Positions 8,803-53,812 of a stretch of 64,000 bases of DNA are shown piece after piece (positions within the stretch are counted from its first letter, which is position 1; every line of letters begins with the position of its first letter). The DNA lies in assembly GCA_028716385.1 (NCBI GenBank), contig JAQUPX010000003.1, forward strand, positions 62,001 to 126,000, written 5' to 3'. Origin of the DNA: a bacterium (GTDB taxonomy: Bacteria; Hydrothermota; UBA3073; JACQXS01; JAQTXJ01). A program made the translations under genes and the position numbers. A model generated the notes under the pieces. It worked only from the letters and a program-made list of their open reading frames with translations, ran no database searches and was not told the DNA's origin.

Positions 8803-10539
8803 TTACAATTCTTTTCTCTTGTATATTCCAATAATCGGGCCACCTGTAACATTTTTATCAAATATTGATACCTTTGAAAGAGCCTCGTAATCTACACGCC
8901 AACTATAATAATCCCACCTGGATAAAGGATACGGTTTGAATTCCTTAATAAGTTCATACCGGTCGTTTAAGGAATCAATGAAATTTTTTGGCAAGTCATT
9001 ACCAACATACTGATTTTTTGCCCAACTGGAAGTAATGAGATATTCTATTCCCTGCTCAACATACTCATCCACATTTTTATAACATTCTTTTCTGCGATAG
9101 TCTTCTTTTTCTAAAACAAGGACGTTCTTTAATGCATACGTCGGTTCACGCTGCCCCTTAATCATAGCTTCTAAATATTTATTGTATTTCCCATTTTTTT
9201 GCTCGTTTACAAGTTGCTCTTCTAATTGTTTTTTACTCTTATGTAATTGAAGCCCTAAATGCCCCGTCTGTTCAAACCCTTCATCACTATTTTCACAAAC
9301 TATTTTACTCCCGGGTAATATGTTTGACTCAACAAATTTAAGTCCGATATTCCTTGTATCCTGACGGGTTATTAGATAATTATACTTTATTGTATTTAAA
9401 AGATTTGGGAACATAAGTCCTATAAGCGTTATCCCTATAATTATATTTCTGGCAAGAAAAGATATTTTCAGTTTTGATACTATTTCATATATAAATTTAG
9501 ATGCAAACAATATAAAAAATGGAATTACGGGTATAAGATACCGTTCACAACTCAAAGGCTGGTTCAAAACAATGCCAAAATATAAAGCTAAAAATATAAT
9601 AAAAGAAATATCTTCTTTTCTATATAATGAATATAGAATGCCTATTAATCCCATTATTTCGAGAGGCAAACCTATTCCCTTTCTAAAATATTCTACTAAA
9701 TAAAATAACCATACCGGTAATGTCCCGGTATTTACATTTGGCCATTGTTCAATGGTAAATATTACTCCATAGTTCTCTATAATGAAATTACGGGAATCAA
9801 ATATCAAAGAGGGGGTACATATAAAAAATATAAGCATAGAAATACCTATTAATATAATACAATTTTTAAGTCTATCTTTGAGAGTAACCGTTTTTTCAGT
9901 TAAAATTATAAATATAGGAGAAACTATGCCTATCAATAGAGAAAACCTTGCTGCTATAGCAATCCCCATAAATATACCTGCAAATAAATATTTTTTTATT
10001 TTTAGCCCTTGATTACTGCAAAAATAAATGGACAGCAAAAGGAATAATGTTCCAAATGTATCCCCCTTCATAATTTTCGATTGGTGGATTGCTAAAAAAC
10101 ATGTACTAAATAATATGCCGGAAGCTACCGCTATAGTATTGTTATAAAGCTTCCTGCTCAGCAAGTACAATGCAACTACACACAAAACACCGATTACAAC
10201 AAAAAATATTCTGCCAATTAAGTATATAGTTGTTGGGTCCTGCATATATAAAACAAGAAAACCAAAAGGAGTTTTTATTATTCCTGAAATTTTTAAAACT
10301 ACATAATAAATACCATATAATATACCTACTAAGGAAGGGATTAGATTACCATAGAAATATCCAAAATGTATCATCCCTTTGTGAGATAATGTGTACAAAG
10401 CATTATAGGCAATTACTCGTTCATCAAAATGGAATAAACTCGGCAGCCCAAAATTTACTCCCCATATTCTTAAAACAAAAGCAATTAAAATAATAAATGA
10501 AAACAGTAGTATATTTTGTTTCCCCTTGTAAGAAATCAT
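8803..10539 (-). CDS. GT-C/GT39-type membrane glycosyltransferase, tandem paralogue 5
   Basis: RIWGVNFGLPSLFHFDERVIAYNA; many TM segments; shared C-terminal domain ending VSIFDKNVTGGPIIGIYKRK. Confidence 0.78.
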   Translation of the reverse strand: MISYKGKQNILLFSFIILIAFVLRIWGVNFGLPSLFHFDERVIAYNALYTLSHKGMIHFGYFYGNLIPSLVGILYGIYYVVLKISGIIKTPFGFLVLYMQDPTTIYLIGRIFFVVIGVLCVVALYLLSRKLYNNTIAVASGILFSTCFLAIHQSKIMKGDTFGTLFLLLSIYFCSNQGLKIKKYLFAGIFMGIAIAARFSLLIGIVSPIFIILTEKTVTLKDRLKNCIILIGISMLIFFICTPSLIFDSRNFIIENYGVIFTIEQWPNVNTGTLPVWLFYLVEYFRKGIGLPLEIMGLIGILYSLYRKEDISFIIFLALYFGIVLNQPLSCERYLIPVIPFFILFASKFIYEIVSKLKISFLARNIIIGITLIGLMFPNLLNTIKYNYLITRQDTRNIGLKFVESNILPGSKIVCENSDEGFEQTGHLGLQLHKSKKQLEEQLVNEQKNGKYNKYLEAMIKGQREPTYALKNVLVLEKEDYRRKECYKNVDEYVEQGIEYLITSSWAKNQYVGNDLPKNFIDSLNDRYELIKEFKPYPLSRWDYYSWRVDYEALSKVSIFDKNVTGGPIIGIYKRKEL

Positions 10540-12327
10540 TTATCTATCTCCCGTCAAGACAAGGCTCTCTCTCTTTTTATATATTTTTATAATAGGACCG
10601 CCAATAACCTTTCTATCAAATATTGATACTTCAGACAAAGCATTGTAATCTATTTTTGAGAAACAGTAATAATCCCACCCAAAGACCGGATTAGGTTTAA
10701 ATTCTTTTATAAGCTCATATTCCTTTTCTAATGACTTTGAAAAACCTTCTGACATTATACGACCAGCAGAGTACCATCTTGACCAACTACTTGTAATAAA
10801 GTAATCTACATTATGTTCTAAATAAATTTTAACAGTAGTATCATACCTTTCATTTTCGTAAGGAGGTTTTTCTAAAACACAAATATTCTCTAATATATAG
10901 CCCGGTTCCTTTTGCCCTTTGATTCCAGCAAGAACAAGAGCACCTCCAAAACCTTCTTCTTTTATCTTATCAAATTGTTCCTGTAATTGTTTTTTACTTT
11001 TATGTATAGGGACCCCCAGAATAGAAGTCTGTTCAAAATATTCTAATCCTTCAGATACTATATTACTCTCCGGGGAAATTGTTTTTTCAATAAATTCTTT
11101 AGCTAAATTCCTTGTATCCGGGCAGCTTATCAAATAATTATACTTTATTGTATTTAATAAACCCGGAATTATAACTATTAGACTCATAACAACAAGAAAA
11201 ATTGGTTTTAATTTCGATTTCTTTTTACAAATTATGACACTAATTTGATAAATAAACTTAGCCGCAAAGAAAACAATAAAAGGAATAATCGGAATAGCAT
11301 GCCACGAAGGAGTAGTGTGACTTAAAATAACACTCCAGAAAAGAATTACAAATACAATCAGACTAATATTCTCTCTTTTATATAACGAATATAATATTCC
11401 TAAAATTCCTATTATTTCTAATGGTACTCCGATTCCATTGCTTATAGGCTCCATCAAACAAATTATCCAATTAAAGTTAGGACTTACACTTTTTGATGTA
11501 CTCATAAGTTGTGTGCCAAGGCCAAATATATTATGAGTAAATATGGAAAACTTGAAAATTACAGAAGGAGTTAATATCAAAAACGCCGTTACACTACACA
11601 GAATGAAAACTAAAAAATTCTTAATCCTATTAGTAAATAACATTTTTCTATCCATAAGAAAAACAATTGCAGGGGTAATTAAATAAATAACCAGAGTGAA
11701 TCTTGCAGCTATTGCAAGCCCGGCAAATATACCGGCAAGAATATACTTTTTAAGTTTTACTTTTTTATTATCCGTATTATCCTCACCCTTTTGAGAAAAG
11801 CAAAAATAAACCGACAATAACATCATTAAAGTCCCTAGTGTGTCTCCTTTCATAAACTTTGCCTGTTGAGTAGGCAAGAAACTAAAAGTAAAGAAAAAAG
11901 CAGAGAGTAGACCGGTTGTTCTATTGTAAAGCCTCTTCCCTATTAAATATAGGACAACAACACAGGCGGTTGATGAAAGAACAAATAGCATTCTTCCGAT
12001 TAAATATACACTTGATGGGTCTCTCATATAAAACACCAAAAAATCAAAAGGAGTCTGAACTATTTTTATAAGTTTTAAAATTAAATAATATATACCATAA
12101 AATACGGCAAGCATATTAGGAATTAAATCACCATAAGGGTAAGCATGATGGATAATAGGGACTTGTCCTTTATGAGCTAATCTATAAAATGCATCCACCG
12201 GAAATATTCTTTCATCTAAATGAAATAATCCGGGCAATCCGAAATTAACACCCCATACTCGCAGAAAAAAAGCAATAATGCATATCAAAAACAATAAAAC
12301 ATAATGGATTTTAATATTTTTGCTCAT
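10540..12327 (-). CDS. GT-C/GT39-type membrane glycosyltransferase, tandem paralogue 4
   Basis: RVWGVNFGLPGLFHLDERIFPVDA; shared C-terminal domain. Confidence 0.78.
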   Translation of the reverse strand: MSKNIKIHYVLLFLICIIAFFLRVWGVNFGLPGLFHLDERIFPVDAFYRLAHKGQVPIIHHAYPYGDLIPNMLAVFYGIYYLILKLIKIVQTPFDFLVFYMRDPSSVYLIGRMLFVLSSTACVVVLYLIGKRLYNRTTGLLSAFFFTFSFLPTQQAKFMKGDTLGTLMMLLSVYFCFSQKGEDNTDNKKVKLKKYILAGIFAGLAIAARFTLVIYLITPAIVFLMDRKMLFTNRIKNFLVFILCSVTAFLILTPSVIFKFSIFTHNIFGLGTQLMSTSKSVSPNFNWIICLMEPISNGIGVPLEIIGILGILYSLYKRENISLIVFVILFWSVILSHTTPSWHAIPIIPFIVFFAAKFIYQISVIICKKKSKLKPIFLVVMSLIVIIPGLLNTIKYNYLISCPDTRNLAKEFIEKTISPESNIVSEGLEYFEQTSILGVPIHKSKKQLQEQFDKIKEEGFGGALVLAGIKGQKEPGYILENICVLEKPPYENERYDTTVKIYLEHNVDYFITSSWSRWYSAGRIMSEGFSKSLEKEYELIKEFKPNPVFGWDYYCFSKIDYNALSEVSIFDRKVIGGPIIKIYKKRESLVLTGDR

Positions 12328-14072
12328 CGTTTTTTATATATTTTTATAACTGGTCCCCCTACAATTTTTTTATCAAATATATGCACTTTTCCAAGCGACT
12401 CATAGTCTATCTGTTTATTATAATAATCCCATTTCAATGTGGGATTAGGCTTAAATTCTTTGACCAACTCATATTCTTTTTCAAGGGAATTCAAAAAACG
12501 TTCAGGCATTACTGTCCCTAATCCTCTCATCCAATCACTTGTTATTAAATAATCTACCCCGTGCTCTATGTAAACTTCCACAGTAGTATCATATTTAGAC
12601 ACTTTATAAGGAGGAATTTCTATATTAGGAACGTTTTCTAATATATAAGTAGGTTCTTTGTACCCGTCAATCATAGCAGAAAGTAATTTTCCAGGTATGT
12701 TTTGTTTATTTATTGATATTAATGTATCTTGTAATTGTTTTTTACTTTTACGCAAAGGAGGACCCAAGACAGAACTTTGGTCTATTAACTCCCCGCCATC
12801 ACTTACTATTTTAGTTCCTGAAGATATGGTACATTCTATAAAATTTTGTGCTAAATTCCGTGTATCCGGTTGAGATATTAAATAATTATATTTAAGGGTT
12901 TTTATCAAAGAGGGATACATAAGGATTATACAACAAAGTCCCATAATTCCCTGCCTAATAGGCAGACTAACTTTAATTCTTTTTATGCCTTCATATAAAA
13001 ATTTAGACGCAAATATTATAAAAAAAGGAATAGCGGGTATAATATAACGTTCCCAACCCGGGGAATGAATTAAAACAAGCATAAAGAATAAAAACAAAAA
13101 AATAATTATACTAAGTTCTTGTATTTTACGATATGTGAATGGACGAAATAACATGCTGATTAATGAACACATAATTCCAAGTATCGCAGTTATTTCCAGA
13201 GTACCACCTATTCCTTTATATAAATGTTCAGTAAAATAAAATAACCATATAGGTTGTGCGCCAAGATTAATTGCTGGCAAAGAAGTTGAAGTCGGCAATA
13301 TTTTATACATTTCGCTTGTAAAATCAGAAAATTGAAAAATTATTGAAGGAGTGGAAATAAAAAATATAAAAACAGTAGTAATACTGAAAATACTTATTCT
13401 TTTAAGCCTAAAACTATCTCTTGAAATAAAATATATTATTATGGGAACAATCGGAGCCAGATATAGAGTAAATCTTGATGCTACCGCAAATCCCATAAAT
13501 ACACCTGCCAATATAGTTTTCTTTATATCAAAATGATAGATTTCATCTTTAATACAGAAATAGAAAGAAAACAAAAGGAATAAAGTGCCGAGACTGTCTC
13601 CTTTCATAAACTTTGACTGATGAATAGGAAGAAAACTGAATGCAAGAAAAAAAGCAGATAATAATCCAATAGTTCTATTGTACAGTTTGCTTCCAAATAA
13701 GTATAAGGCCCAGACAGATAATGTGCTTGCGCAAACAAATAACATTCTTCCAATCAAATATACGTTTGTAGGGTCTTTCATATAAAGAACAAGAAAATCA
13801 AAAGAAGTCCTTACTATCCCTATTACTTTTAGAACTACAAAATAAATGCTATAAAGTATACTTAATAAATACGGTATTAAATTTCCATAGAAAAAAGCTT
13901 TTGGAATATGTCCTTTATGAGTTAATGCATAAAAAGCATTATACGGTAAAAAACGCTCATCAATATAAAATAATCCGGGTAATCCGAAATTAACACCCCA
14001 TACTCGCAGAACAAAAGCAATAATACATATCAAAAACAATAAAACATAATGGATTTTAATATTTTTGCTCAT
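12324..14072 (-). CDS. GT-C/GT39-type membrane glycosyltransferase, tandem paralogue 3
   Basis: RVWGVNFGLPGLFYIDERFLPYNA; 4-bp overlap with the next gene; N-terminus nearly identical to paralogue 4. Confidence 0.78.
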   Translation of the reverse strand: MSKNIKIHYVLLFLICIIAFVLRVWGVNFGLPGLFYIDERFLPYNAFYALTHKGHIPKAFFYGNLIPYLLSILYSIYFVVLKVIGIVRTSFDFLVLYMKDPTNVYLIGRMLFVCASTLSVWALYLFGSKLYNRTIGLLSAFFLAFSFLPIHQSKFMKGDSLGTLFLLFSFYFCIKDEIYHFDIKKTILAGVFMGFAVASRFTLYLAPIVPIIIYFISRDSFRLKRISIFSITTVFIFFISTPSIIFQFSDFTSEMYKILPTSTSLPAINLGAQPIWLFYFTEHLYKGIGGTLEITAILGIMCSLISMLFRPFTYRKIQELSIIIFLFLFFMLVLIHSPGWERYIIPAIPFFIIFASKFLYEGIKRIKVSLPIRQGIMGLCCIILMYPSLIKTLKYNYLISQPDTRNLAQNFIECTISSGTKIVSDGGELIDQSSVLGPPLRKSKKQLQDTLISINKQNIPGKLLSAMIDGYKEPTYILENVPNIEIPPYKVSKYDTTVEVYIEHGVDYLITSDWMRGLGTVMPERFLNSLEKEYELVKEFKPNPTLKWDYYNKQIDYESLGKVHIFDKKIVGGPVIKIYKKR

Positions 14073-15856
14073 CGTTTTTTATATATTTTTATAGTTGGCC
14101 CACCTACAACCTTTTTATCAAATATGGACACTTTTAGCAATGCATCGTAATCTATCCTGAAACAAGAATGGTCCCATTCAAAAACCGGGTAAGGGGTAAA
14201 TTCTTTTATAAGTATATATTCTTTATTAAGCGAATTCAAAAACTCTTCCGGTGGCAATCTTACTCCTCTCCAGCTTGATGTAATTAAATATTCTATCCCG
14301 GAAGTTACATATTTATCAACAGATTTGTTCGCCTTAGTTTCAAAATTAGGCCTTTCTAAAAAAGGTACATTTTCTAATACATAAGTAGTGCCTGACTGCC
14401 CCTCCAGTATAGCCTGCAGAAATTTTCCTCCCCGTCCTTCGGATTGCACTTTTTCAAGTTGCTTCAAAATTTGTGTTTTACTCTTGTGAATCGGGGGTCC
14501 CAGAACGGATGTTTGTTCATACCCTTCTATTCCTTCGTTTACAATCCTTGTACCGGAAGGAATATTTTTTTCTACAAAAGCTTTTGCAATATTTCTTGTA
14601 TCCTCACAATTTGAAATTAAATAATCATACTTTATAGCATTTAAAATATTTGGTACTGCACACCACAACAAAACAGAACACATAAGTACCACTTTCATAT
14701 ACGTTGATACTTTTAATTTTGACACAAGTTGATATATAAATTTAGCAGAAAATAATATTATAAAAGGAACTACCGGGATAACATACCGTTCAAAGTTCTG
14801 TGAATGGCTTAATACCACGGCAAAAAATAAAACTAAAAAGATAACAATCCCTAATTCCATTTTTTCACTCAAAACAATATTTTTTTTGTTTATATATTTT
14901 TTCGCATAATTACATACTGAGCTTAATATTCCTATTATCCCGGTTATTAGGAGTGGCAATCCCATACCTTTTCCGAGATGTTCTGTAATATAAAATAACC
15001 ATACAGGTTGATTGCCGGGTTTTACCCAGGGGTCTTTTTGATTATGAACCTGCCACATAAGGTCACTTGTAAAATTAGAGAATTCAAATATTAAAGATGG
15101 AGTAGTAATCAAAAATACGACTACAGTAGTAATAATAAATATAAGACAATGCTTGAGAGGCATTGATATGTTATCTCTCGTAAGTTTTGGGGGGATAAAA
15201 AAGATAATTATAAAAATAAGCGGAACAACATACAAAGTAAATCTTGATGCTATTGCTAATCCCATGAAAATACCGGCGATTATATACTTTCTTACAGCAA
15301 CCTTTTCTATAGCTACTATGAAAAAATAAAATGCAAATAAAAGTAAAAAGGTTCCTAATGTATCTCCTTTTAAAAATTTTGATTGGTGAATAGGAAGAAA
15401 AGCAAATGCAAGAAAAAAGGCAGCTATTAATCCTATCCATTTATTATATAGTTTTTTGCCTAATAAATATATTGCAAAAATAGATACAGAGCCAATAATA
15501 ACAAAAATAAATCTGGCAATTAAATATATACTTGATGGGTCTTTTATATAAAAAACAAGAAAATCAAAAGGAGTTTTAAGAACTCCGGCTATTTTTAAAA
15601 CTATATAATATACTCCATATATACTTCCAAATATATAAGGAATGAAATTACCATACCCGTAAAGTAAAACATGCCCTTTATGAGTCATTGCATAAAATAT
15701 ATCATAAATAAACCAGCGTTCATCTGCATGGAATAACTCGGGTAATCCAAAATTTATACCCCATAGTCTCAAAACAAAACCACCTATAAATATAAAAAAC
15801 AAAGGTAAAATAGCCTGTCTGTATATCAAATTTTTACCCCTATTAAATTTACCCAT
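14069..15856 (-). CDS. GT-C/GT39-type membrane glycosyltransferase, tandem paralogue 2
   Basis: RLWGINFGLPELFHADERWFIYD; 4-bp overlap; shared C-terminal domain. Confidence 0.78.
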   Translation of the reverse strand: MGKFNRGKNLIYRQAILPLFFIFIGGFVLRLWGINFGLPELFHADERWFIYDIFYAMTHKGHVLLYGYGNFIPYIFGSIYGVYYIVLKIAGVLKTPFDFLVFYIKDPSSIYLIARFIFVIIGSVSIFAIYLLGKKLYNKWIGLIAAFFLAFAFLPIHQSKFLKGDTLGTFLLLFAFYFFIVAIEKVAVRKYIIAGIFMGLAIASRFTLYVVPLIFIIIFFIPPKLTRDNISMPLKHCLIFIITTVVVFLITTPSLIFEFSNFTSDLMWQVHNQKDPWVKPGNQPVWLFYITEHLGKGMGLPLLITGIIGILSSVCNYAKKYINKKNIVLSEKMELGIVIFLVLFFAVVLSHSQNFERYVIPVVPFIILFSAKFIYQLVSKLKVSTYMKVVLMCSVLLWCAVPNILNAIKYDYLISNCEDTRNIAKAFVEKNIPSGTRIVNEGIEGYEQTSVLGPPIHKSKTQILKQLEKVQSEGRGGKFLQAILEGQSGTTYVLENVPFLERPNFETKANKSVDKYVTSGIEYLITSSWRGVRLPPEEFLNSLNKEYILIKEFTPYPVFEWDHSCFRIDYDALLKVSIFDKKVVGGPTIKIYKKR

Positions 15857-17606
15857 TTCTTTTATATATTCTAATAAAAGGCCCGCCTATAATATTTTTA
15901 TCAAATAGAGATACTTTTGAAAGACTCTTATAATCCACTGTGTAATAATACTCATATTGAAAAATTGGATAAGGAGAAAATTCTTTTACAAGAGTATATT
16001 CTTTTTTAAGTGAATTTAAAAAACTTTCCGACAATCCGGGAAGTTCAGTTGCCCATACAGATACAATTAAATACTCTACCCCTGTCTTCAAATAAATATC
16101 CACCATATTAGTATCCGGTTTTTCTAAAAACCAAATATTTTTTAATTTATACGTCGGCTCCGGTTGTCCTTCAATCATAGCAAGTAAATACTTGCCCGAT
16201 ATATTTTGTGCCCTTGCGACTTCTAATAGTTCCTTTAATTGTTCTTTGTCCTTATGAAGTTGTACTCCGTATGCTGAAATTTGTTCATAAAGTTCGCCTC
16301 CTAAATTTACAATATTTGTCCCGGCAGGAATATTTTTTTCTATAAACGCTTTGGCAGTCTTTCTCGTATCATCACACGATATTAAATAATTATACTTTAT
16401 GGCGTTATCAATGTTCGGAAATATACACCAAGCGCTTACAAAACAAACAAGTGCCTTTTTAAAAAAATTAGATATTGTTAACTTTAAGACAATTTCATAT
16501 ATAAACTTAGATGCAAATAATATAAAAAATGGGATTACAGAAACAGCATATCTTCCGGTATTAGCTGAATTATTTAATATAAAAGCAAAAAACAAAATTA
16601 AAAAGGCAATAATTCCTATAATTAAACGTTCATTGTAATTAATACTATTTTTTAAGTATAATTTGATATATCTATAAAGTGAATACAAAATCCCCATTAT
16701 AGCAAGTATCTCAAGCTGTAAACCCATTCCTTTGTGTATATGCTCTGTCAAATAAAATAACCATATAGGTTGATTGCCGGAATTAACCCATGGAGTAATA
16801 TGAAATAATTGATTTTTCATTTCTGAACTTAAACTATGTGTAAAATCAGAAAACTCGAAGATTATTGAAGGGGTACTCATCAAAAACACAACAACCGTAA
16901 TAACAATAAATATATAGCTTTTTTTAATCCTTATTAATAAATTATGCCTGTCCGGTAAAATAAGATATAAGCATATTATAGAAAGAAAAGCTATCGACAA
17001 ATAAAATCTTGTTGCTATTGCAAATCCCATAAAAATACCGGAAAAGATATATTTCTTTGATATTGGATACTGCTCAATATAAGTAAGAAAATATAACGAT
17101 ATTAAAAGAAATAAAGAAGCAAGACTATCATTTTTTATAAATTTTGCATGGTGTATAGAAAGAAAGTTAAATGCAAGAAAAGTTGCAGATATCAAACCAA
17201 TCTTTCTATTATAAAGTCTACTCCCTAATAAGTATAAAACCCAAACAGATAATGTGCTTGCGCAAACAAATAACATTCTTCCAATTAAATATACATTTGT
17301 GGGGTTTTTCATAAAAAGAACAAGAAAATCATACGGAGTTTGAACTATATTACCTATTTTTAAGATTATATAATATATTCCATAAATACCACTTAATAAA
17401 TAAAAGATTAAGTTTCCGCAAAAATATGTAACAATATGCCCTTTGTGAGTTAATGAATAAAACACGTTATAAACATAGGTAGATTCATCGCCATAAAACA
17501 AACTTGGGAAACCACAATTTACACTCCATACTCTCAAAATAAAAGCGCTAACAAGAATCAATATTAAGAAAAAAAACTCCCAATGTTGTTTTCTATAATT
17601 TATCAT
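15849..17606 (-). CDS. GT-C/GT39-type membrane glycosyltransferase, tandem paralogue 1
   Basis: RVWSVNCGFPSLFYGDESTYVYN; 8-bp overlap; shared C-terminal domain VSLFDKNIIGGPFIRIYKRNG. Confidence 0.78.
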   Translation of the reverse strand: MINYRKQHWEFFFLILILVSAFILRVWSVNCGFPSLFYGDESTYVYNVFYSLTHKGHIVTYFCGNLIFYLLSGIYGIYYIILKIGNIVQTPYDFLVLFMKNPTNVYLIGRMLFVCASTLSVWVLYLLGSRLYNRKIGLISATFLAFNFLSIHHAKFIKNDSLASLFLLISLYFLTYIEQYPISKKYIFSGIFMGFAIATRFYLSIAFLSIICLYLILPDRHNLLIRIKKSYIFIVITVVVFLMSTPSIIFEFSDFTHSLSSEMKNQLFHITPWVNSGNQPIWLFYLTEHIHKGMGLQLEILAIMGILYSLYRYIKLYLKNSINYNERLIIGIIAFLILFFAFILNNSANTGRYAVSVIPFFILFASKFIYEIVLKLTISNFFKKALVCFVSAWCIFPNIDNAIKYNYLISCDDTRKTAKAFIEKNIPAGTNIVNLGGELYEQISAYGVQLHKDKEQLKELLEVARAQNISGKYLLAMIEGQPEPTYKLKNIWFLEKPDTNMVDIYLKTGVEYLIVSVWATELPGLSESFLNSLKKEYTLVKEFSPYPIFQYEYYYTVDYKSLSKVSLFDKNIIGGPFIRIYKRNG

Positions 17607-28270: not shown

Positions 28271-29332
28271 TTAGAGATATGTTTTTGCTAATTCCTCTCC
28301 GTTTAGAACCCTTAGCGCACCTTGAGCAAGCGCAAGCATTTCATTCTCACCCGGAAGAACAAGCGCAGGAGCTATAAATTCTGTTCGTTCTTTTATCAAA
28401 TCAACGAGTAACTTATAATTTGCAGCAGAACCCGTAAGAACTATACCATCAACTTTTCCCTTCAACACTGTCGCCATTGCACCTATTTCCTTTGCTATTT
28501 GATAAGCCATTGCCTCAATATAAAATTTCGCCTTTTCATCGCCATTAGCTATTCTATCTCTCACCTCTTCTATACTATTTGTCCCCAGATGAGCAGTAAT
28601 CCCGCCATTTCCTACAAGTCTTTTTTTAAGCCACTTCTCGTCATATTTCCCCGAAAAACAAAGTTTAACTAGCTGTGTTACGGGTAAACTGCCACTACGT
28701 TCCGGCGAAAATGGCCCTCCCTCATTTGCATTGTTAGCATCTATTATTTTTCCCGATTTTAATGGACATATAGATATTCCTCCGCCCAAATGCGCTACTA
28801 TAAGATTAATATCATTCAGGGATTTCCCCAATTGTGAAGCAGCTTTTCTTGCCATTGCTTTTATGTTTAATGTGTGTTGTAAAGCAACCCTTGTAATTTC
28901 AGGAATGCCCGCAACTCTTGCAAGAGGTTCAAATTCGTCTACTGAAACAGGGTCAACGGTAAATGCAGGAACATTAAATTTATTAGCTACTTCCGAAGCT
29001 AATAACGGTCCTATATTTGATATATGTTCGGCTAGAACTCTGCCTTCTTTGACATCATTTAACATAGTCTCATTTACGGTATATGTTCCGCTTACAATTG
29101 GTTTAAACGGACCTCCTCTTCCGACAGCTGCATCTATTTTCTTTACATCCCATTTATTAAGAAGGTCTTCTATTATTTTAAATCTAAACCCCAGTTGTTC
29201 TAAAGAATTTTTGTATTGTTTAAGTTCTTCCTGGGAATGAGATAATTTTTCTCTCTTCACTTCCTTTTCATCTTCGAACAAAGAACATACCGTAGACGTA
29301 GATCCGGGATTTATCACAAAAAGTGTCTTCAT
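28271..29332 (-). CDS. buk: Butyrate kinase
   Basis: FVINPGSTSTVCSLFE, AVGRGGPFKPIVSGTY, HLGGGISICPLKSGKIID, GVVLTGSAA-like motif; SD GGGGG. Confidence 0.92.
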   Translation of the reverse strand: MKTLFVINPGSTSTVCSLFEDEKEVKREKLSHSQEELKQYKNSLEQLGFRFKIIEDLLNKWDVKKIDAAVGRGGPFKPIVSGTYTVNETMLNDVKEGRVLAEHISNIGPLLASEVANKFNVPAFTVDPVSVDEFEPLARVAGIPEITRVALQHTLNIKAMARKAASQLGKSLNDINLIVAHLGGGISICPLKSGKIIDANNANEGGPFSPERSGSLPVTQLVKLCFSGKYDEKWLKKRLVGNGGITAHLGTNSIEEVRDRIANGDEKAKFYIEAMAYQIAKEIGAMATVLKGKVDGIVLTGSAANYKLLVDLIKERTEFIAPALVLPGENEMLALAQGALRVLNGEELAKTYL

Positions 29333-29346
29333 TATTCCCCCTTTAA

Positions 29347-31122
29347 TTAAAATTGTTTTTTCAATCTCAAAGTTATAATATTCTCATTATAGCTATATGT
29401 ACTATCATACTCATTAGCATTATTCATAATCTTATATTCCAGTATAATAAACTTATACAATTCTATTCTCATATCCGCTGTCCAATTAAATGAAGTTGAA
29501 GAGTTGTTGTTCCCATAGCCTGTTTTGAGAGAAAACTTGTTTTTAATAAGTTCATATTCTGCATCAGCCCTGAATGAATTACCACTGCTTGTTATTCCAT
29601 AACTACTTGAGACATAGCCTTTTGCAACTCCAAATCTTATCCCGCCACTGGTAGCCGACATTCCAAAAGTATTTGAATAAATAATATACGGAGTGAATTT
29701 CCCAAGAGTATAATTTAGATAATTATAAAGCATATATTCCGTCGAATCGCTTATTTTGTATATTTCATAATTACCATTCAAGTAAAGGTTTTTATACTGG
29801 ATAGAAAATTCGTCAAGAACACCATTTTTACCGGCATCAAGATAAGGATTTCCAATTATAAAATAAGATGTATCTATGTTATTGTAAGTTAATTTATTAT
29901 CAATATACCCTGTCGTTAATTCTATTCCGGCGTTATAAGCATATCCCTCTTTTAATGCTGAATCCGGATATTGAGAACTACTTTTGCTAAATTCAATTAT
30001 CCCGATTAATTGTTCTAAAAATGGATATTTAACTTCTCCGGTAAAAAAGTCGTTTTTTAAGGGTGGTTCATACATTAGCCTATTTAAAGAAGTGTCCGAT
30101 AGAGTTGTCAAAACAGTTGAGTCATCCAACCCATAGTAATAACTCAGCCCAAAATCGGCGTTTAAGATTTTCCTGCTTATTTTCCCGCCCAATATATATC
30201 TTGCATAAGTAAGATAATTTGTATCCGATTTTTCCACCTGTGCACAAAGTAAATCAATATTCATAAATTTAGAGGTTGTGGTTAAATTAAGCCCGCGTGG
30301 CAATATTCCATATAACGTAAGCATTGACGAAGTAGTATAAATATCCCCTACTGATAATTTGCCAATGGGGTATTCCATCTCAAAATTAAAATTATAACTT
30401 TCGTCCATATTAAACCAGAAAGAAAAAGGGAAATAAAGTGAGCCATTTATATAAGTATCAAATAAAGGATGTGTTCCGGGTTCATAAGGTAAAGAGGAGG
30501 TTACGGAATCTTTACTTGTTGTATATCTTGCCCCTGCTGATGCATATCCATGAGCAGATATTTTAGAAATTATGTTAAAAGAAAAAGTAGTTTCGGTTAT
30601 ATCTTTTATTTTTACTTTCAATTGATGTTCTCCCATACCTAAGTTAGCCCTGGGGGTGTAATATATAGAGAAAGAAGTATTTTCGCAATGTGAAGTAATG
30701 TCAATGCTGTCAAGGAACACTGTTATATTTTTAGGATTAACCTCGTTGCTAAATACAATAACAATATCCGGTTTTTTGGTAGTAACCGAGCCATATGGTT
30801 CAGGGCTTACAAGCTCAATCAAATTATCTCTTGTTATGACAGAAACTTTGTATTCCGGGGATTTGATAATTTTATTATCTTTAGTTTTAACGACTATGCA
30901 ATATTTTATTGACGGTGATTCAATCAATTCATCAGGAATAGTAGCAGATAGACGAGTTTGTTCTTTTTGCATATATACCGTCTTCTCATCTATTAAAATA
31001 TATGCCATTGCGACTTCTTCAGAAACATCTGCATAAATTTGCAAGGGAGCATCAATAAAAATATTATTTGGCGGGGTATGCGTAATTTGGACTCCTACTA
31101 ATTGAAACAATAGTATATACAT
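29347..31122 (-). CDS. Putative outer-membrane beta-barrel protein with N-terminal Ig-like domains
   Basis: N-terminal Ig-like stretches (ELVSPEPYGSVTTKKPDIVIVFSNEV...GMGEHQLKVKIKD); long amphipathic-strand C-terminal half ending ...NIITLRLKKQF with terminal Phe. Confidence 0.6.
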   Translation of the reverse strand: MYILLFQLVGVQITHTPPNNIFIDAPLQIYADVSEEVAMAYILIDEKTVYMQKEQTRLSATIPDELIESPSIKYCIVVKTKDNKIIKSPEYKVSVITRDNLIELVSPEPYGSVTTKKPDIVIVFSNEVNPKNITVFLDSIDITSHCENTSFSIYYTPRANLGMGEHQLKVKIKDITETTFSFNIISKISAHGYASAGARYTTSKDSVTSSLPYEPGTHPLFDTYINGSLYFPFSFWFNMDESYNFNFEMEYPIGKLSVGDIYTTSSMLTLYGILPRGLNLTTTSKFMNIDLLCAQVEKSDTNYLTYARYILGGKISRKILNADFGLSYYYGLDDSTVLTTLSDTSLNRLMYEPPLKNDFFTGEVKYPFLEQLIGIIEFSKSSSQYPDSALKEGYAYNAGIELTTGYIDNKLTYNNIDTSYFIIGNPYLDAGKNGVLDEFSIQYKNLYLNGNYEIYKISDSTEYMLYNYLNYTLGKFTPYIIYSNTFGMSATSGGIRFGVAKGYVSSSYGITSSGNSFRADAEYELIKNKFSLKTGYGNNNSSTSFNWTADMRIELYKFIILEYKIMNNANEYDSTYSYNENIITLRLKKQF

Positions 31123-31185
31123 AAGAAAGAGAAATTTATCTTAAATATCTCTTCCGTCAAGTCTAAAATACTCCACAAATAAAAA

Positions 31186-31217
31186 GGGCACTGTCCACAC
31201 TAAACGGACAATGCCCT
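31186..31217 (-). terminator. Rho-independent terminator after the Ig-repeat gene
   Basis: Minus strand GGGCATTGTCCG-loop-GGACAGTGCCC followed by TTTTTATTTG. Confidence 0.8.
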
Positions 31218-31234
31218 AAAATTAAAATCTTACT

Positions 31235-32893
31235 CTATTGAATAATATCTACATCTGCCCCGGTACGTCCAAAACCATAGCCTGGTTTTATATCAACCAG
31301 TACTGCACATTTACATGGGACATTGCCTGCAGTAAATAAACCATTCTGTGTTACAGTCCCCGCTTTTTCCGGGAATACTTTCCACATTAAAGGAATATTC
31401 GGCACTGCGTTATTATTGGCATCAACCACTTTTGCATCAAACTGTTGAGTAGCACCGACCTTAACTTTTACAAGTTTAGGGTCTATTTTAACAATATATG
31501 AAGCAACCGTAATTTCAGCAACATCTTTACCTTTTCCAAAATTAGGAGGAATAATCGCCGCTACTATTCCTCTACCGGGCAACTTACCTGCCGTAAATAA
31601 TCCGTCTTTCGTAATCGTTCCAAGAGTATTCGGTCCGACTTCCCATATTAAAGGAATATTTTGAATATTCCCTTTCAGATCTGTCACTACAGCTTTGAAT
31701 TGAATTTGTTCTCCCGGTTTTACATTAACATTACGAGGTTCTATTTTTACATTGAATTGCATATCTTTTGCAATAAGAACACCTGCACGGTCTAATCCCA
31801 TACCAAATTCAGGCGGAACTATAGCCAAAACTTCACATTTTCCAATTTCAGGCCCTGCCGTAAATAATCCGTCCGAATTTATAGTCCCTGCTTTTTCCGG
31901 TCTAACTTCCCATTTTATAGGGACTTGTACTAAATTACCATTTATATCATAAACTTCGGCATTGAATTGAATAGTTCCCATTGGTTCTATTGAGCTGAAT
32001 TTAGGATATATTTTAACTTTTACTTTTTCCGGCTTACCGATAATAATTCCTGCGCGGTCACCACCTGTCATATCCCCTGCTTTCACCACAACGGCAATAA
32101 ATCCTTTGCCTTTCTTTTCTCCTGCAGTAAACACTCCATCCGATGTAATAGTGCCGAGATTTTCCGGTATAACTTTCCATAATGCTTTCGCAGTAATTGA
32201 ATCATTATGCGGCCCCATTATTTCATATTCAAATTTCATTGTTTCCTGCGGTTTAAGTATCGCATGAGGTGGTTTTATTTTAACCGGCAAATATTTACCG
32301 GGTTCGCCCACCATTACAGTGGCTTCTCCAATACCTTCAAGATCGCCTGCTTTTACAAGAGCTATAATTTTAGCTTTTCCATTCTCATCCCCTGTAAATA
32401 TTCCATCTTGTGAGAGTTTCCCCATATGCGGCGGGGCTAATTTCCATAGAGTCTTAAATACTTCCACCGTTTTTCCATCATTATCCAATACTTCTACTTT
32501 AAATTGCACAGGATCGCCTATTTTCGCAAAAGTACGGGTAGGAATTACTCTAACTTTCAACTCCCGTCTTTCATTTTCTCGACTAATTTTTATAAGTGAA
32601 TGCCCTATGCCTTTTCCGGCTGCTGTTTCTACTAATGCGCGAACTATACCCTTCCCTTCTTTACCACCTGCAAAAAATAAACCATTTGGACCAATTTTTC
32701 CTAACTGATTTGGTTTTACATCCCATTTTATTTTTGCTTCCACCGGATTCCCCATAGAATCAGTTACTTCTGCCTTGAACTGAACTACATCTTTTGGATG
32801 TATTATAGCAGGATTGGGAAGCACTTTAACCGTTATTGCCGCTTGTAATGCCATTGGCAAAACAAGAGCAACTATTCCGAAAAAGCGTTTCAT
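31235..32893 (-). CDS. Secreted protein of six tandem Ig-like (Big-type) repeats
   Basis: Start MKRFFGIVALVLPMALQAA with SD AGGGGG; six ~90-aa units of pattern VKV.P....P...QFKAEV.D..GN.V...W.V.PE..G.I..DGLFTAG. Confidence 0.8.
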   Translation of the reverse strand: MKRFFGIVALVLPMALQAAITVKVLPNPAIIHPKDVVQFKAEVTDSMGNPVEAKIKWDVKPNQLGKIGPNGLFFAGGKEGKGIVRALVETAAGKGIGHSLIKISRENERRELKVRVIPTRTFAKIGDPVQFKVEVLDNDGKTVEVFKTLWKLAPPHMGKLSQDGIFTGDENGKAKIIALVKAGDLEGIGEATVMVGEPGKYLPVKIKPPHAILKPQETMKFEYEIMGPHNDSITAKALWKVIPENLGTITSDGVFTAGEKKGKGFIAVVVKAGDMTGGDRAGIIIGKPEKVKVKIYPKFSSIEPMGTIQFNAEVYDINGNLVQVPIKWEVRPEKAGTINSDGLFTAGPEIGKCEVLAIVPPEFGMGLDRAGVLIAKDMQFNVKIEPRNVNVKPGEQIQFKAVVTDLKGNIQNIPLIWEVGPNTLGTITKDGLFTAGKLPGRGIVAAIIPPNFGKGKDVAEITVASYIVKIDPKLVKVKVGATQQFDAKVVDANNNAVPNIPLMWKVFPEKAGTVTQNGLFTAGNVPCKCAVLVDIKPGYGFGRTGADVDIIQ

Positions 32894-33032
32894 ATTATAC
32901 CCCCTTCCTTCTAAAACATTTGTTCTCTTACTAAATTCAGAGAAGTTTTTATTTCTTTGTATTTCTTCCATTAGTTTTTTACCTCCTTTGCTAAATTAGA
33001 TATAAATTCTATCAAAAAAGTTCCCAGAAAAT

Positions 33033-33656
33033 TTACAATTCACTACTTTTCCCATCAGGAACAACATAAAACATCTGTTCTTTTTGTTTTACTACTTTAT
33101 TATTTTTATCTATTATCTGAATTTTCATTTTATAATATCCTTCTTTCATATTCTTGTCCGATGTGTATATTATCTGGTCGGATTCTTTTTCGCGGGCAAC
33201 GACTTCATCATTGATTAGTATTTGCGCTTCCTGTGATTTAGGTTTATTATAAAACGCAGCGCTTATTGTCACATCATTGTCGGGAACTATGGAATTGACT
33301 TCCGGAGACACAATATAGATATCAGGTTTACCCGTTTTTAAATGCTGGAAAGAGAATACGGCAACAAATATTACACACATTGCACCTACCGTTATGGGAA
33401 TTAATTTAGCAAATGAGAATCTTTTAGATTTTTCCCGTTCAATCCTCGCCCATAATTTAGCTTCAAAATATGGCGGCAGGTCTACCTTCGTAACATTCTC
33501 CTTGAGAAGTTTATTGAATTTTTTCGCATTCTCAAGTTCAGCCCGACAATCTTTACACTCATTTATATGAGTTTCAAGAATGTTTTGCTCTTCCGCAGAC
33601 AACTCGTTGTCCACAAAAGCCTGAATAAGTAATTTAATATTATCACAATTTTTCAT
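33033..33656 (-). CDS. Zinc-finger anti-sigma factor with one TM helix and Ig-like extracytoplasmic domain
   Basis: ETHINECKDCRAEL (HxxxCxxC); TM IPITVGAMCVIFVAVFSF; C-terminal VSPEVNSIVPDNDVTISAAF...EGYYKMKIQIIDKNN; SD AAGGGGG before ATG 33656. Confidence 0.8.
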   Translation of the reverse strand: MKNCDNIKLLIQAFVDNELSAEEQNILETHINECKDCRAELENAKKFNKLLKENVTKVDLPPYFEAKLWARIEREKSKRFSFAKLIPITVGAMCVIFVAVFSFQHLKTGKPDIYIVSPEVNSIVPDNDVTISAAFYNKPKSQEAQILINDEVVAREKESDQIIYTSDKNMKEGYYKMKIQIIDKNNKVVKQKEQMFYVVPDGKSSEL

Positions 33657-33666
33657 AAATTCCCCC

Positions 33667-34152
33667 TTAATCCGATAAAGATGGCTGACCGCCACGCAAA
33701 TTTAATTTCTTTTCTAACATTTCCTTGCCTCTTGCAAGTCTCGACCTGACAGTCCCAATCGGGACACCTATTGTGTTCGCTATTTCTTCGTAAGGCATAT
33801 CATTATAATATTTCAAAACTATTGGTTCACGATATTCTACAGGTAAAGTTGAAATTAGTTTTTGTATCCTAAGTTTATTTTCAACATCCGGGACTGCTTC
33901 TTTTATCATTTCCGCGTTTAACGGCAGTAAAGACGTTTTATTTTTATTGAAATGCTTGTAACACTCATTTTTGGCAATCCTGTATAACCACGTGTATACA
34001 TTTGAGTCCCCTCTGAACTTACTAAAACTTTTGTAAGCAAGGAACAACGCTTCCTGTGTTATATCAGACGCATCATCATAATTGCCGGTAAATCCGAATG
34101 CCATATTAAATAACTTGTCCGAATACATAGTTACTACCTCTTCGAATTGCAT
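33667..34152 (-). CDS. ECF-family RNA polymerase sigma factor
   Basis: DDASDITQEALFLAYKSFSKFRGDSNVYTWLYRIAKNECYKHF; LPVEYREPIVLKYYNDMPYEEIANTIGVPIGTVRSRLARGKEML. Confidence 0.93.
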   Translation of the reverse strand: MQFEEVVTMYSDKLFNMAFGFTGNYDDASDITQEALFLAYKSFSKFRGDSNVYTWLYRIAKNECYKHFNKNKTSLLPLNAEMIKEAVPDVENKLRIQKLISTLPVEYREPIVLKYYNDMPYEEIANTIGVPIGTVRSRLARGKEMLEKKLNLRGGQPSLSD

Positions 34153-51248: not shown

Positions 51249-51462
51249 TTAGCCTCCCCTCCTTCTAAGTCGTACATTTATTTATAATATTTTTACTATT
51301 TTCAATTTTAGGTTTTATAAAGCAAAAAATTTCCATATTTACACAAATAGGCTACCATAATAATCAAGATTTTTTTCCTGTCAACTAATGTTTTTTAACA
51401 TCTGCGCAAGTTAATGAATTTCATTGAAATGTATTGACAAAATAAAGAATCTCCATAGTTTT

Positions 51463-52989
51463 ATGAGTGCTTTATTAAAGATAAAATTGAATTTTAACAA
51501 AAAATTGACACGGATGATATCAAGTTTCATATTACTAGGTGTTTTAATAGTATCCGGATGCACTACAAATACCCCAAAAAAACTAATCAGAACGCCTGCA
51601 GTCGCAGGAATGTGGTACCCGGCAGATAAAACGGAATTACAAAATACAATCCAAACATTCCTTAATAATGTACCGGCTGAACAAACCAATAAAGATAACA
51701 TATGCGCGATTATTGCACCCCACGCAGGATATGCTTTTTCCGGTCAAACTGCAGCTTATGCATTCAAACAACTTATCGGAAAAACTTATGAAACAGTAAT
51801 AATTATAGGCCCAAAACATCCGCCGAAAAGTAACACCATCCCTGATTTAACGGAAAAAGGAATTTACGTTGATTGCGCAAACGCATACAAAACACCTGTT
51901 GAAACTACAGATATAAATACTTCTATGGCAAAAGAACTTATTGCCTGCAATGAAATTTTTCACCCCATTCCCGAAACAGGCACGGATGAACATTCGGTAG
52001 AAGCTGAAATACCTTTTCTACAAGTAGTGTTTGGCAATAACCTTAAAATCGTGCCTATAATTATGACCGACCATTCTTACGAAACTTGCAAAATCCTCGC
52101 AGATGCTATTATTAAGACAACTAAAGGGAAAAATATTCTTATCGTAGCCTCCTCTGACCTTTATCATGGCTATGACTATGAAGAATGCAAAACAAGCGTA
52201 AACGAAGCTTGCAGTTTGATTTCCAAATACGATATTAATAACTTTTATTCCGCTTTCATAAACAAAAATATAGCCTGCGGAGGCGCACCGATAACTACAT
52301 TAATGCTTGTATGCAAAGAATTGAACGCAACAAATGTTATTCCTTTATGTAAAACAAATTCGGGAGATGTAACAGGTCAAAAAGGGGGGTGGATTGTGGG
52401 ATACAGCAGTTTTGCTTTTACAAAAAACACTAAAACGGAATTTAAACCGCTTGATGCGCAAGCACAAACAGAATTACTCAAAATGGCAAGAAACACGATA
52501 GAAAGTTATGCAAAAAAGAAAGAAATATTAAAATTCAAACCCGCTTTTCCTATTTTAAGTGAAAAACGAGGCGTATTTGTTACCTTGCTCACTAAAGATG
52601 ACGACCTCCGCGGATGTATCGGTCATCACGAATCAGATACCCCGCTCTATGAATTAGTCCCGGAAATGGCACTCGCATCCGCATTCCAGGATTTTAGGTT
52701 CCAACCGCTAACGGAAAAAGAACTTAATAACATAAAAATCAAAATATCCGTCTACCTTACTAATGTTTATGAAATAAAAGATACGAGCGAATACGAACTC
52801 GGAGTTCACGGTATTATTATGGAAAAAAACGGCAGGGCATCTACGTTCTTGCCTGAAGTCCCGACAGAACAAAAATGGACAAAAGAAGAAACTTTTTATT
52901 ATCTTTCGCAAAAAGCCGGGTTACCGGTAGATGCATGGAAACAAGGCGCTAAATTCCTTGTCTATAAAACACAAGTATTTGGAGAATAA
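51463..52989 (+). CDS. Predicted lipoprotein: MEMO domain fused to AMMECR1 domain
   Basis: Lipobox LIVSGC; MEMO motifs APHAGYAFSG, DEHSVEAEIPFLQ, ASSDLYHG, CGGAPI; AMMECR1 LRGCIGHHESDTPLYELVPEMALASAFQDFRF. Start uncertain (51463 or about 51513). Confidence 0.88.
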   Translation: MSALLKIKLNFNKKLTRMISSFILLGVLIVSGCTTNTPKKLIRTPAVAGMWYPADKTELQNTIQTFLNNVPAEQTNKDNICAIIAPHAGYAFSGQTAAYAFKQLIGKTYETVIIIGPKHPPKSNTIPDLTEKGIYVDCANAYKTPVETTDINTSMAKELIACNEIFHPIPETGTDEHSVEAEIPFLQVVFGNNLKIVPIIMTDHSYETCKILADAIIKTTKGKNILIVASSDLYHGYDYEECKTSVNEACSLISKYDINNFYSAFINKNIACGGAPITTLMLVCKELNATNVIPLCKTNSGDVTGQKGGWIVGYSSFAFTKNTKTEFKPLDAQAQTELLKMARNTIESYAKKKEILKFKPAFPILSEKRGVFVTLLTKDDDLRGCIGHHESDTPLYELVPEMALASAFQDFRFQPLTEKELNNIKIKISVYLTNVYEIKDTSEYELGVHGIIMEKNGRASTFLPEVPTEQKWTKEETFYYLSQKAGLPVDAWKQGAKFLVYKTQVFGE

Positions 52990-52990
52990 T

Positions 52991-53812
52991 ATGAATATAA
53001 GAGAACCTGTAGTCGCAAACCAGTTTTACCCCGGGAATCCTTCCCTGTTGAAAGATATGATACTTTCTTTCTTTAAAGATAAAAACATTCCAGATATAAA
53101 AGAAAATGTTCACGCTCTTATCGTTCCTCACGCAGGATATACTTATTCAGGTAAAACCGCCGCTTATGCTTTTAAACAAATCCAGAACAAACAATACGAT
53201 TCCGTTATAATAATTGGCCCGTCTCACAGCGCAGTTTTTGACGGAATTTCCGTATACCCTGAAGGCAAGTTTAAAACCCCTTTAGGCAATATCGAAATAG
53301 ATAAAAACCTAACGGATAAAATTATTTCTTTCGATTCACGCATCATTGATGCCACAGAACCCCATATCGAGGAACATTCAATAGAAGTTATGCTTCCTTT
53401 CTTACAGGTAGCCCTTGATAATTTCAAAATTGTGCCGGTATGTATGGGAAGCTACGACTTCTCAACCTGCAACAAACTCGCAGACGCAATACTTAATGCT
53501 ATCGGACATACTAATAAAGTCCTGATTATCGCATCTTCCGATTTTTATCACGGACATAGCTATGAAGAATGCAAACAAAGCACAACCGAATCAGCAAACC
53601 TTATTGCTTCAAATAATATAGAAGAATTTTATAATCACTTTTATAAGAATAGCGCTGCCTGCGGAGGTGCTCCAATTGTAACTACTATGCTTGTAGAAAA
53701 GAAATTGCAAAACAACAAAATAACTCTGTTGAATTTAACGAATTCCGGGGACGTTACAGGTGTAAAAGCAGGATATGTCGTAGGATATGCAAGTTTGGCA
53801 ATAACGAAATAA
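52991..53812 (+). CDS. MEMO-family protein (AmmeMemoRadiSam system protein B-like)
   Basis: VPHAGYTYSGKTAAYAFKQI, EEHSIEVMLPFLQVAL, ASSDFYHGHSYEEC, CGGAPI. Confidence 0.92.
   Translation: MNIREPVVANQFYPGNPSLLKDMILSFFKDKNIPDIKENVHALIVPHAGYTYSGKTAAYAFKQIQNKQYDSVIIIGPSHSAVFDGISVYPEGKFKTPLGNIEIDKNLTDKIISFDSRIIDATEPHIEEHSIEVMLPFLQVALDNFKIVPVCMGSYDFSTCNKLADAILNAIGHTNKVLIIASSDFYHGHSYEECKQSTTESANLIASNNIEEFYNHFYKNSAACGGAPIVTTMLVEKKLQNNKITLLNLTNSGDVTGVKAGYVVGYASLAITK

Follow-up and report, generated by a model that had tools for sequence, protein, structure and literature searches.

An ECF Sigma Factor Locus Whose Anti-Sigma Factor and Predicted Outer-Membrane Barrel Share an Ig-like Domain

Introduction

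The closest described parallels to the locus reported here are the FecA/FecR/FecI, PupB/PupR/PupI and FoxA/FoxR/FoxI systems, in which an ECF sigma factor is likewise joined to a single-pass anti-sigma factor, and the C-terminal periplasmic domain of the latter is homologous to the N-terminus of a linked, TonB-dependent barrel (PMC7186176, PMC11637429). In these classical iron systems, the domain common to barrel and anti-sigma factor carries an outer-membrane signal to transcription, and the signalling domain of FoxA shields FoxR from proteolysis (PMC11637429).

Here, a four-gene locus is described from a 64,000-nucleotide stretch of DNA of a member of the Hydrothermota (the window, meaning the whole stretch analyzed). 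The locus is a genuine module, both specific and conserved; its signalling varies a known theme, by a mechanism that we infer. Its sequences suggest, at somewhat less than an even chance, a sigma/anti-sigma signalling module for a set of surface proteins, which would be wired through Ig contact to a dedicated outer-membrane barrel. The likeliest mechanism would resemble cell-surface signalling of the FecA/FecR or PupB/PupR kind, except that an Ig-like domain would take the role of STN and a TonB receptor would be missing.

Genes of the Locus

The coordinates, order and common minus-strand orientation of the four genes are as an earlier note on this DNA had given them (Table 1). Adjacent genes carrying PF04542, PF08281 and PF13490 form a pair of ECF sigma factor and zf-HC2 anti-sigma factor. 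The anti-sigma factor has a single hydrophobic membrane segment at about residues 84–104, preceded by an RsiW-like cytoplasmic part (E 1.9e-9; RsiW is the best solved-structure match). The sensor domain follows this segment, within the limits proposed earlier, and adopts an Ig/Fn3-like fold in the model (block pLDDT 72–89).

Table 1. Positions of the locus features in the window
Feature	Position	Strand	Evidence
ECF sigma gene, 161 aa	33667..34152	-	PF08281 3.6e-17, PF04542 1.2e-14 (Pfam: Sigma70_r4/r2)
zf-HC2 anti-sigma gene, 207 aa	33033..33656	-	PF13490 4.5e-9
IgRep, exported six-repeat Big_2 protein gene	31235..32971	-	PF02368 1.7e-20
Barrel gene, 591 aa, predicted outer-membrane barrel with two N-terminal Ig-like domains	29347..31122	-	AF2, orthologues
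Anti-sigma Ig-like sensor domain, periplasmic, residues 110-200	33057..33329	-	Homology to barrel Ig2; model
Barrel Ig-like domain 2 (Ig2), residues 100-187, common to anti-sigma	30562..30825	-	Profile comparisons
Candidate sigma promoter 5' of sigma gene, GGAACTTTTTAGCAATATAACGTATCTAA	34162..34190	-	Exact match, genome-wide search
Second candidate sigma promoter, 5' of IgRep, GGAACTTTTTTGATAGAATTTATATCTAA	32996..33024	-	Exact match, genome-wide search
Intrinsic terminator between IgRep and barrel	31185..31217	-	14-pair stem + T run, -21.7 kcal/mol, z -6.3
Sigma-70-like candidate promoter of barrel gene, TTGACG-N16-TAAATT	31133..31160	-	Consensus scan only

IgRep contains six W-x-V-x-P...GxFxAG repeats. 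Two starts are possible for this protein: a signal peptide begins at the ATG at 32892, and a start codon further upstream, at 32971, would lengthen the product by 26 aa. In genomes G000, G001, G007 and G008, the upstream start is always 24 nt away from the candidate promoter, and the leader that it places before the signal peptide measures about 23–26 aa across the four.

For the barrel, an AF2 model based on 11 relatives (mean pLDDT 80) predicts about 22 long strands after two N-terminal domains. The protein has no Pfam or NCBIfam family match, and neither a TonB plug nor an STN family was found on the barrels of the window, G044 or G030. The top PDB matches of the model are the ushers FimD and PapC (E 2e-9), a class with a 24-strand translocation pore fold, but with TM scores of only 0.32–0.47. 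Membership of the chaperone-usher family was rejected on sequence, given that PF00577 (Usher) matched nothing in six genomes, with a positive E. coli control, and that the barrel has no PDB sequence match. Judged from the model, an usher-like fold would suit export of the Ig-repeat protein.

The hairpin between IgRep and the barrel gene, previously read as a terminator, is real, and the sister genome G001 has a hairpin of -24.9 kcal/mol at the same position. Immediately past the barrel gene, an acetate/butyrate kinase-family gene (28271-29332) starts 15 nt after the stop codon in G000 and G001, and it may be co-transcribed with the barrel gene. Elsewhere, the window holds five tandem paralogous membrane proteins of 578–595 aa, all in one direction and probably glycosyltransferase-like (8803-17606), and two neighbouring MEMO-like genes (51424-53812), the first apparently fused with an AMMECR1-like part (names assigned by eye).

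A Domain Common to Anti-Sigma Factor and Barrel

The earlier note had aligned the anti-sigma sensor by eye with the N-terminal region of the barrel. Comparison of orthologue alignments with hhalign confirmed a relationship and narrowed it: the barrel N-terminus comprises two domains, and only the second is common to both proteins (probability 98.0, E 2e-13, as against only 26.5 for the first). With all families pooled, the match to Ig2 remained at 97.4 (E 1e-11), whereas the pooled query scored just 0.1 with IgRep, 0.2 with barrel Ig1 and with a reversed profile, and 1.9 with a regulon lipoprotein that carries an Ig domain. Barrel Ig1 and IgRep were accordingly rejected as relatives of the sensor.

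Genome-wide searches agreed. In six-frame searches with the anti-sigma domain profile, the barrel domain was the sole non-self match in G000 (E 3.8e-7), G001 (E 3.4e-8) and G002 (E 3.6e-5); in G007, the score of a 2374-aa protein was close to that of the barrel. Conversely, the barrel profile picked up the anti-sigma factors of G002, G007 and G008, and plain BLASTP across genomes related the anti-sigma and barrel domains at E 4e-5. Taken together, the profile, control and reciprocal results establish that the alignment made by eye reflects homology, and the profile comparison of sensor with barrel N-terminus thus bears out the similarity expected of them.

The two domains are short (85–94 residues) and about 24% identical. 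The anti-sigma factors of all cluster families, distant ones included, end in an Ig-like domain. Within family f8, similarity between anti-sigma factor and barrel is moderate (58.5%, E 1e-4), and in genome-wide searches of the five f8 genomes the f8 anti-sigma profile found the barrel in G040 alone (E 0.004). The domain tree is poorly resolved and makes no choice between one and two origins of the common domain.

Conservation and Gene Order

A profile built from 11 barrels recovered a full-length barrel in 13 of the 148 genomes of the phylum, 12 of them complete and one cut by a contig end. Members scored E ≤ 5.5e-111 and the next best match 3.7e-18; matches of this second kind are partial and belong to a broader barrel superfamily, and those read lack this N-terminus. 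Sigma factor, anti-sigma factor and IgRep are present in all 13 barrel genomes, with a sigma orthologue and a linked IgRep orthologue in every cluster. The four genes are contiguous in 10 of the 13 and span about 11 kb in one more; in G002 and G007, they are divided between two contigs. A scan with the sigma alignment returned, among the matches listed, general RpoE-type sigma factors.

Three kinds of arrangement were found. G000 and G001 have the order sigma, anti-sigma, IgRep, barrel. In G008, sigma and anti-sigma are followed by several other genes and then by IgRep, convergent with the barrel gene; the same order recurs in G007, with sigma on another contig, and in G002, with the two gene pairs on two contigs. 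The remaining genomes (G017, G029, G030, G040, G044, G048, G060, G052) carry barrel, sigma, anti-sigma and IgRep on one strand, with a FecR-domain gene inserted after the barrel gene in four of them (G044, G048, G060, G052). Relatives of this gene lie outside the cluster in G029 (L245 1504-2688) and G017 (L246 1504-2682), and the promoter motif described below stands at the G029 copy only. The linkage on which the earlier note's idea depended therefore holds across the phylum, through several changes of gene order.

Ig-type anti-sigma factors with the same domain also occur in G057 (L253 8436-9068) and G041 (L254 7101-7676). Here, a Spy-like gene lies upstream of sigma, and no barrel or IgRep was found within the regions read around the anti-sigma gene. 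Their sigma factors fall near those of the clusters in a weakly resolved tree. The domain thus does not imply a barrel and can serve another role.

Predicted Promoter Motif and Regulon

The promoter search suggested earlier for this sigma factor yielded a predicted promoter motif, GGAAC-N18/19-TCTAA. In all 13 clusters it stands 5' of sigma or of a FecR-domain gene in the same operon, and it also occurs 5' of IgRep where this gene stands apart. In G000, G001, G002, G007 and G008, it takes the form GGAACTTTT-N15-TCTAA (equal to GGAAC-N19-TCTAA) before both sigma and IgRep, and the N19 form precedes sigma in G030. The N18 form, GGAAC-N18-TCTAA, is found after the barrel stop codon and ahead of sigma in G017, G029 and G040, and ahead of the FecR-domain gene in G044, G048, G060 and G052. 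It is absent before 13 other ECF genes of the same phylum and from every barrel upstream region read. Sigma-70-like sequences occur upstream of the barrels instead, including TTGACA-type sites in G040 and G044.

Because the motif precedes sigma and IgRep and never the barrel, the first two appear to be controlled by the sigma factor and the barrel to be expressed separately. The separation of the barrel gene from its neighbours, which the hairpin had first suggested, thus proves general: in every arrangement the barrel is outside the sigma-type promoter.

In the genomes of families f1, f2 and f16, 21 exact sites were examined, and 19 of them have an ORF starting no more than 230 nt downstream; this mostly encodes sigma, IgRep or another product bearing an export signal. 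As this set had been gathered by motif, a second was drawn without choice of genes, comprising 24 sites found genome-wide in four f8 genomes. Roughly half of these fall between genes, where most are followed by a sigma, FecR-domain or exported/lipoprotein gene, among them a serpin-like lipoprotein gene and the displaced FecR-domain gene of G029. The remaining f8 sites fall inside genes, in numbers in line with the reversed-pattern control counts. Many regulon genes end in what appears by eye to be a T9SS-like sorting domain; IgRep does not.

A sigma-type site also precedes a gene for a small secreted protein at L068 6770-7261 (G000 C4) and L069 5528-8770 (G001). The genes that follow encode a 94-aa PqqD-like protein, an ATP-grasp-like protein and a PLP decarboxylase-like protein, named by eye.

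Proposed Mechanism and Alternatives

In the mechanism that we favour, the barrel would be made independently of the sigma factor, and its periplasmic Ig2 would touch the anti-sigma Ig domain or hold a partner that this domain would otherwise bind. During contact, the anti-sigma factor would be shielded and the sigma factor held. If the barrel became occupied or damaged, or if it were outnumbered, regulated proteolysis, for which there is an RseP-type protease gene, would be able to attack the anti-sigma factor, and the freed sigma factor would drive production of more sigma, of IgRep and of the other surface proteins. Regulated proteolysis is assumed from the RsiW-like cytoplasmic part and from M50 proteases, which are near universal: they were found in all 10 genomes tested but equally in each of the 14 controls, which makes them an unspecific feature.

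Contact of one Ig domain with the other is favoured by the specific domain homology, by the company of the other three genes in all 13 barrel genomes, by the promoter motif in 13 of 13 clusters, and by a predicted regulon of mostly exported proteins; against it count the G057 and G041 anti-sigma factors, the unspecific M50 proteases, the weaker similarity in f8 and the position of the barrel outside the regulon. A more ambitious formulation, which we put forward with slightly greater reserve, is that cell-surface signalling evolved a second time, independently: a non-TonB barrel would signal to an ECF anti-sigma factor through a shared Ig-like domain, so that IgRep output follows the condition of the pore that exports or anchors it. 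If true, the same wiring would have been assembled from unrelated parts in another phylum, meaning that such wiring arose more than once, and the locus would make it practicable to study how a cell senses the assembly of its own surface. A directly testable regulon is defined by the motif.

The main rival to direct contact makes IgRep the common partner, as the earlier note had envisaged. Both Ig domains would bind a third protein, most simply IgRep during export; the anti-sigma factor, competing with the barrel, would gauge unassembled IgRep, and feedback from the product would set sigma activity. IgRep is linked in every cluster and is the most constant promoter target besides sigma, and the best matches of the barrel model, FimD and PapC, are pores that export Ig-like subunits. 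This usher likeness is confined to the fold, however, at the low TM scores given above and with no Usher-family or PDB sequence match, and the competition idea is weakened by G057 and G041, where the domain occurs with no IgRep nearby. We consider this explanation rather unlikely.

Less probable again is that the common domain is a general periplasmic Ig-like module for an envelope ligand or stress, acquired independently by the two proteins, with no signalling between them and with linkage due to service of the same envelope. Sensors often have Ig folds, no single transfer emerges from the domain tree, and the G057 and G041 anti-sigma genes adjoin a Spy-like gene and not a barrel; yet the domain profile finds only anti-sigma factor and barrel in G000–G002, and the linkage outlasts repeated reordering of the genes. 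That the similarity reflects chance or a mere common Ig fold, as the shortness and low identity of the domains might suggest, is highly improbable, being already contradicted by the hhalign score set against silent Ig-like and reversed controls, by the six-frame and BLASTP matches, and by the return of anti-sigma factors to the barrel profile.

Comparison with Known Systems

Several regulatory systems resemble the locus in part. Among autoregulated ECF pairs, those of the SigW/RsiW type are close, RsiW being the nearest solved structure to the anti-sigma cytoplasmic part; the locus differs from them in its dedicated barrel, its Ig-repeat protein and its promoter. Clostridial biomass sensing by sigma-I/RsgI (PMC6056542) offers a parallel, its anti-sigma sensors being akin to modules on regulon proteins, although sigma-I is not an ECF factor, its sensors bind polysaccharide and there is no outer membrane. 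In PorXY-SigP control of the T9SS, an ECF sigma factor likewise governs surface-protein biogenesis (PMC4800418), but SigP pairs with a response regulator and targets T9SS components, not an Ig-repeat protein.

The chaperone-usher pores FimD and PapC provide the closest solved folds to the barrel model, together with an Ig-like partner. No sequence relation was detected between them and the locus barrel and no chaperone gene was seen at the locus, and one six-Ig-repeat protein stands in place of the pilus subunits.

TonB-dependent signalling remains the nearest comparison. Its common domain is STN, whereas the locus has an Ig-like domain and lacks a family match to TonB plug or STN. Its anti-sigma factors belong to the FecR family, while that of the locus matches zf-HC2 and not FecR; the FecR domain sits on a separate protein in four clusters. 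The classical barrel is itself a regulon member, whereas the barrel described here lies outside the regulon promoter. Finally, where TonB-dependent systems target iron uptake, the target of this locus is a surface protein.
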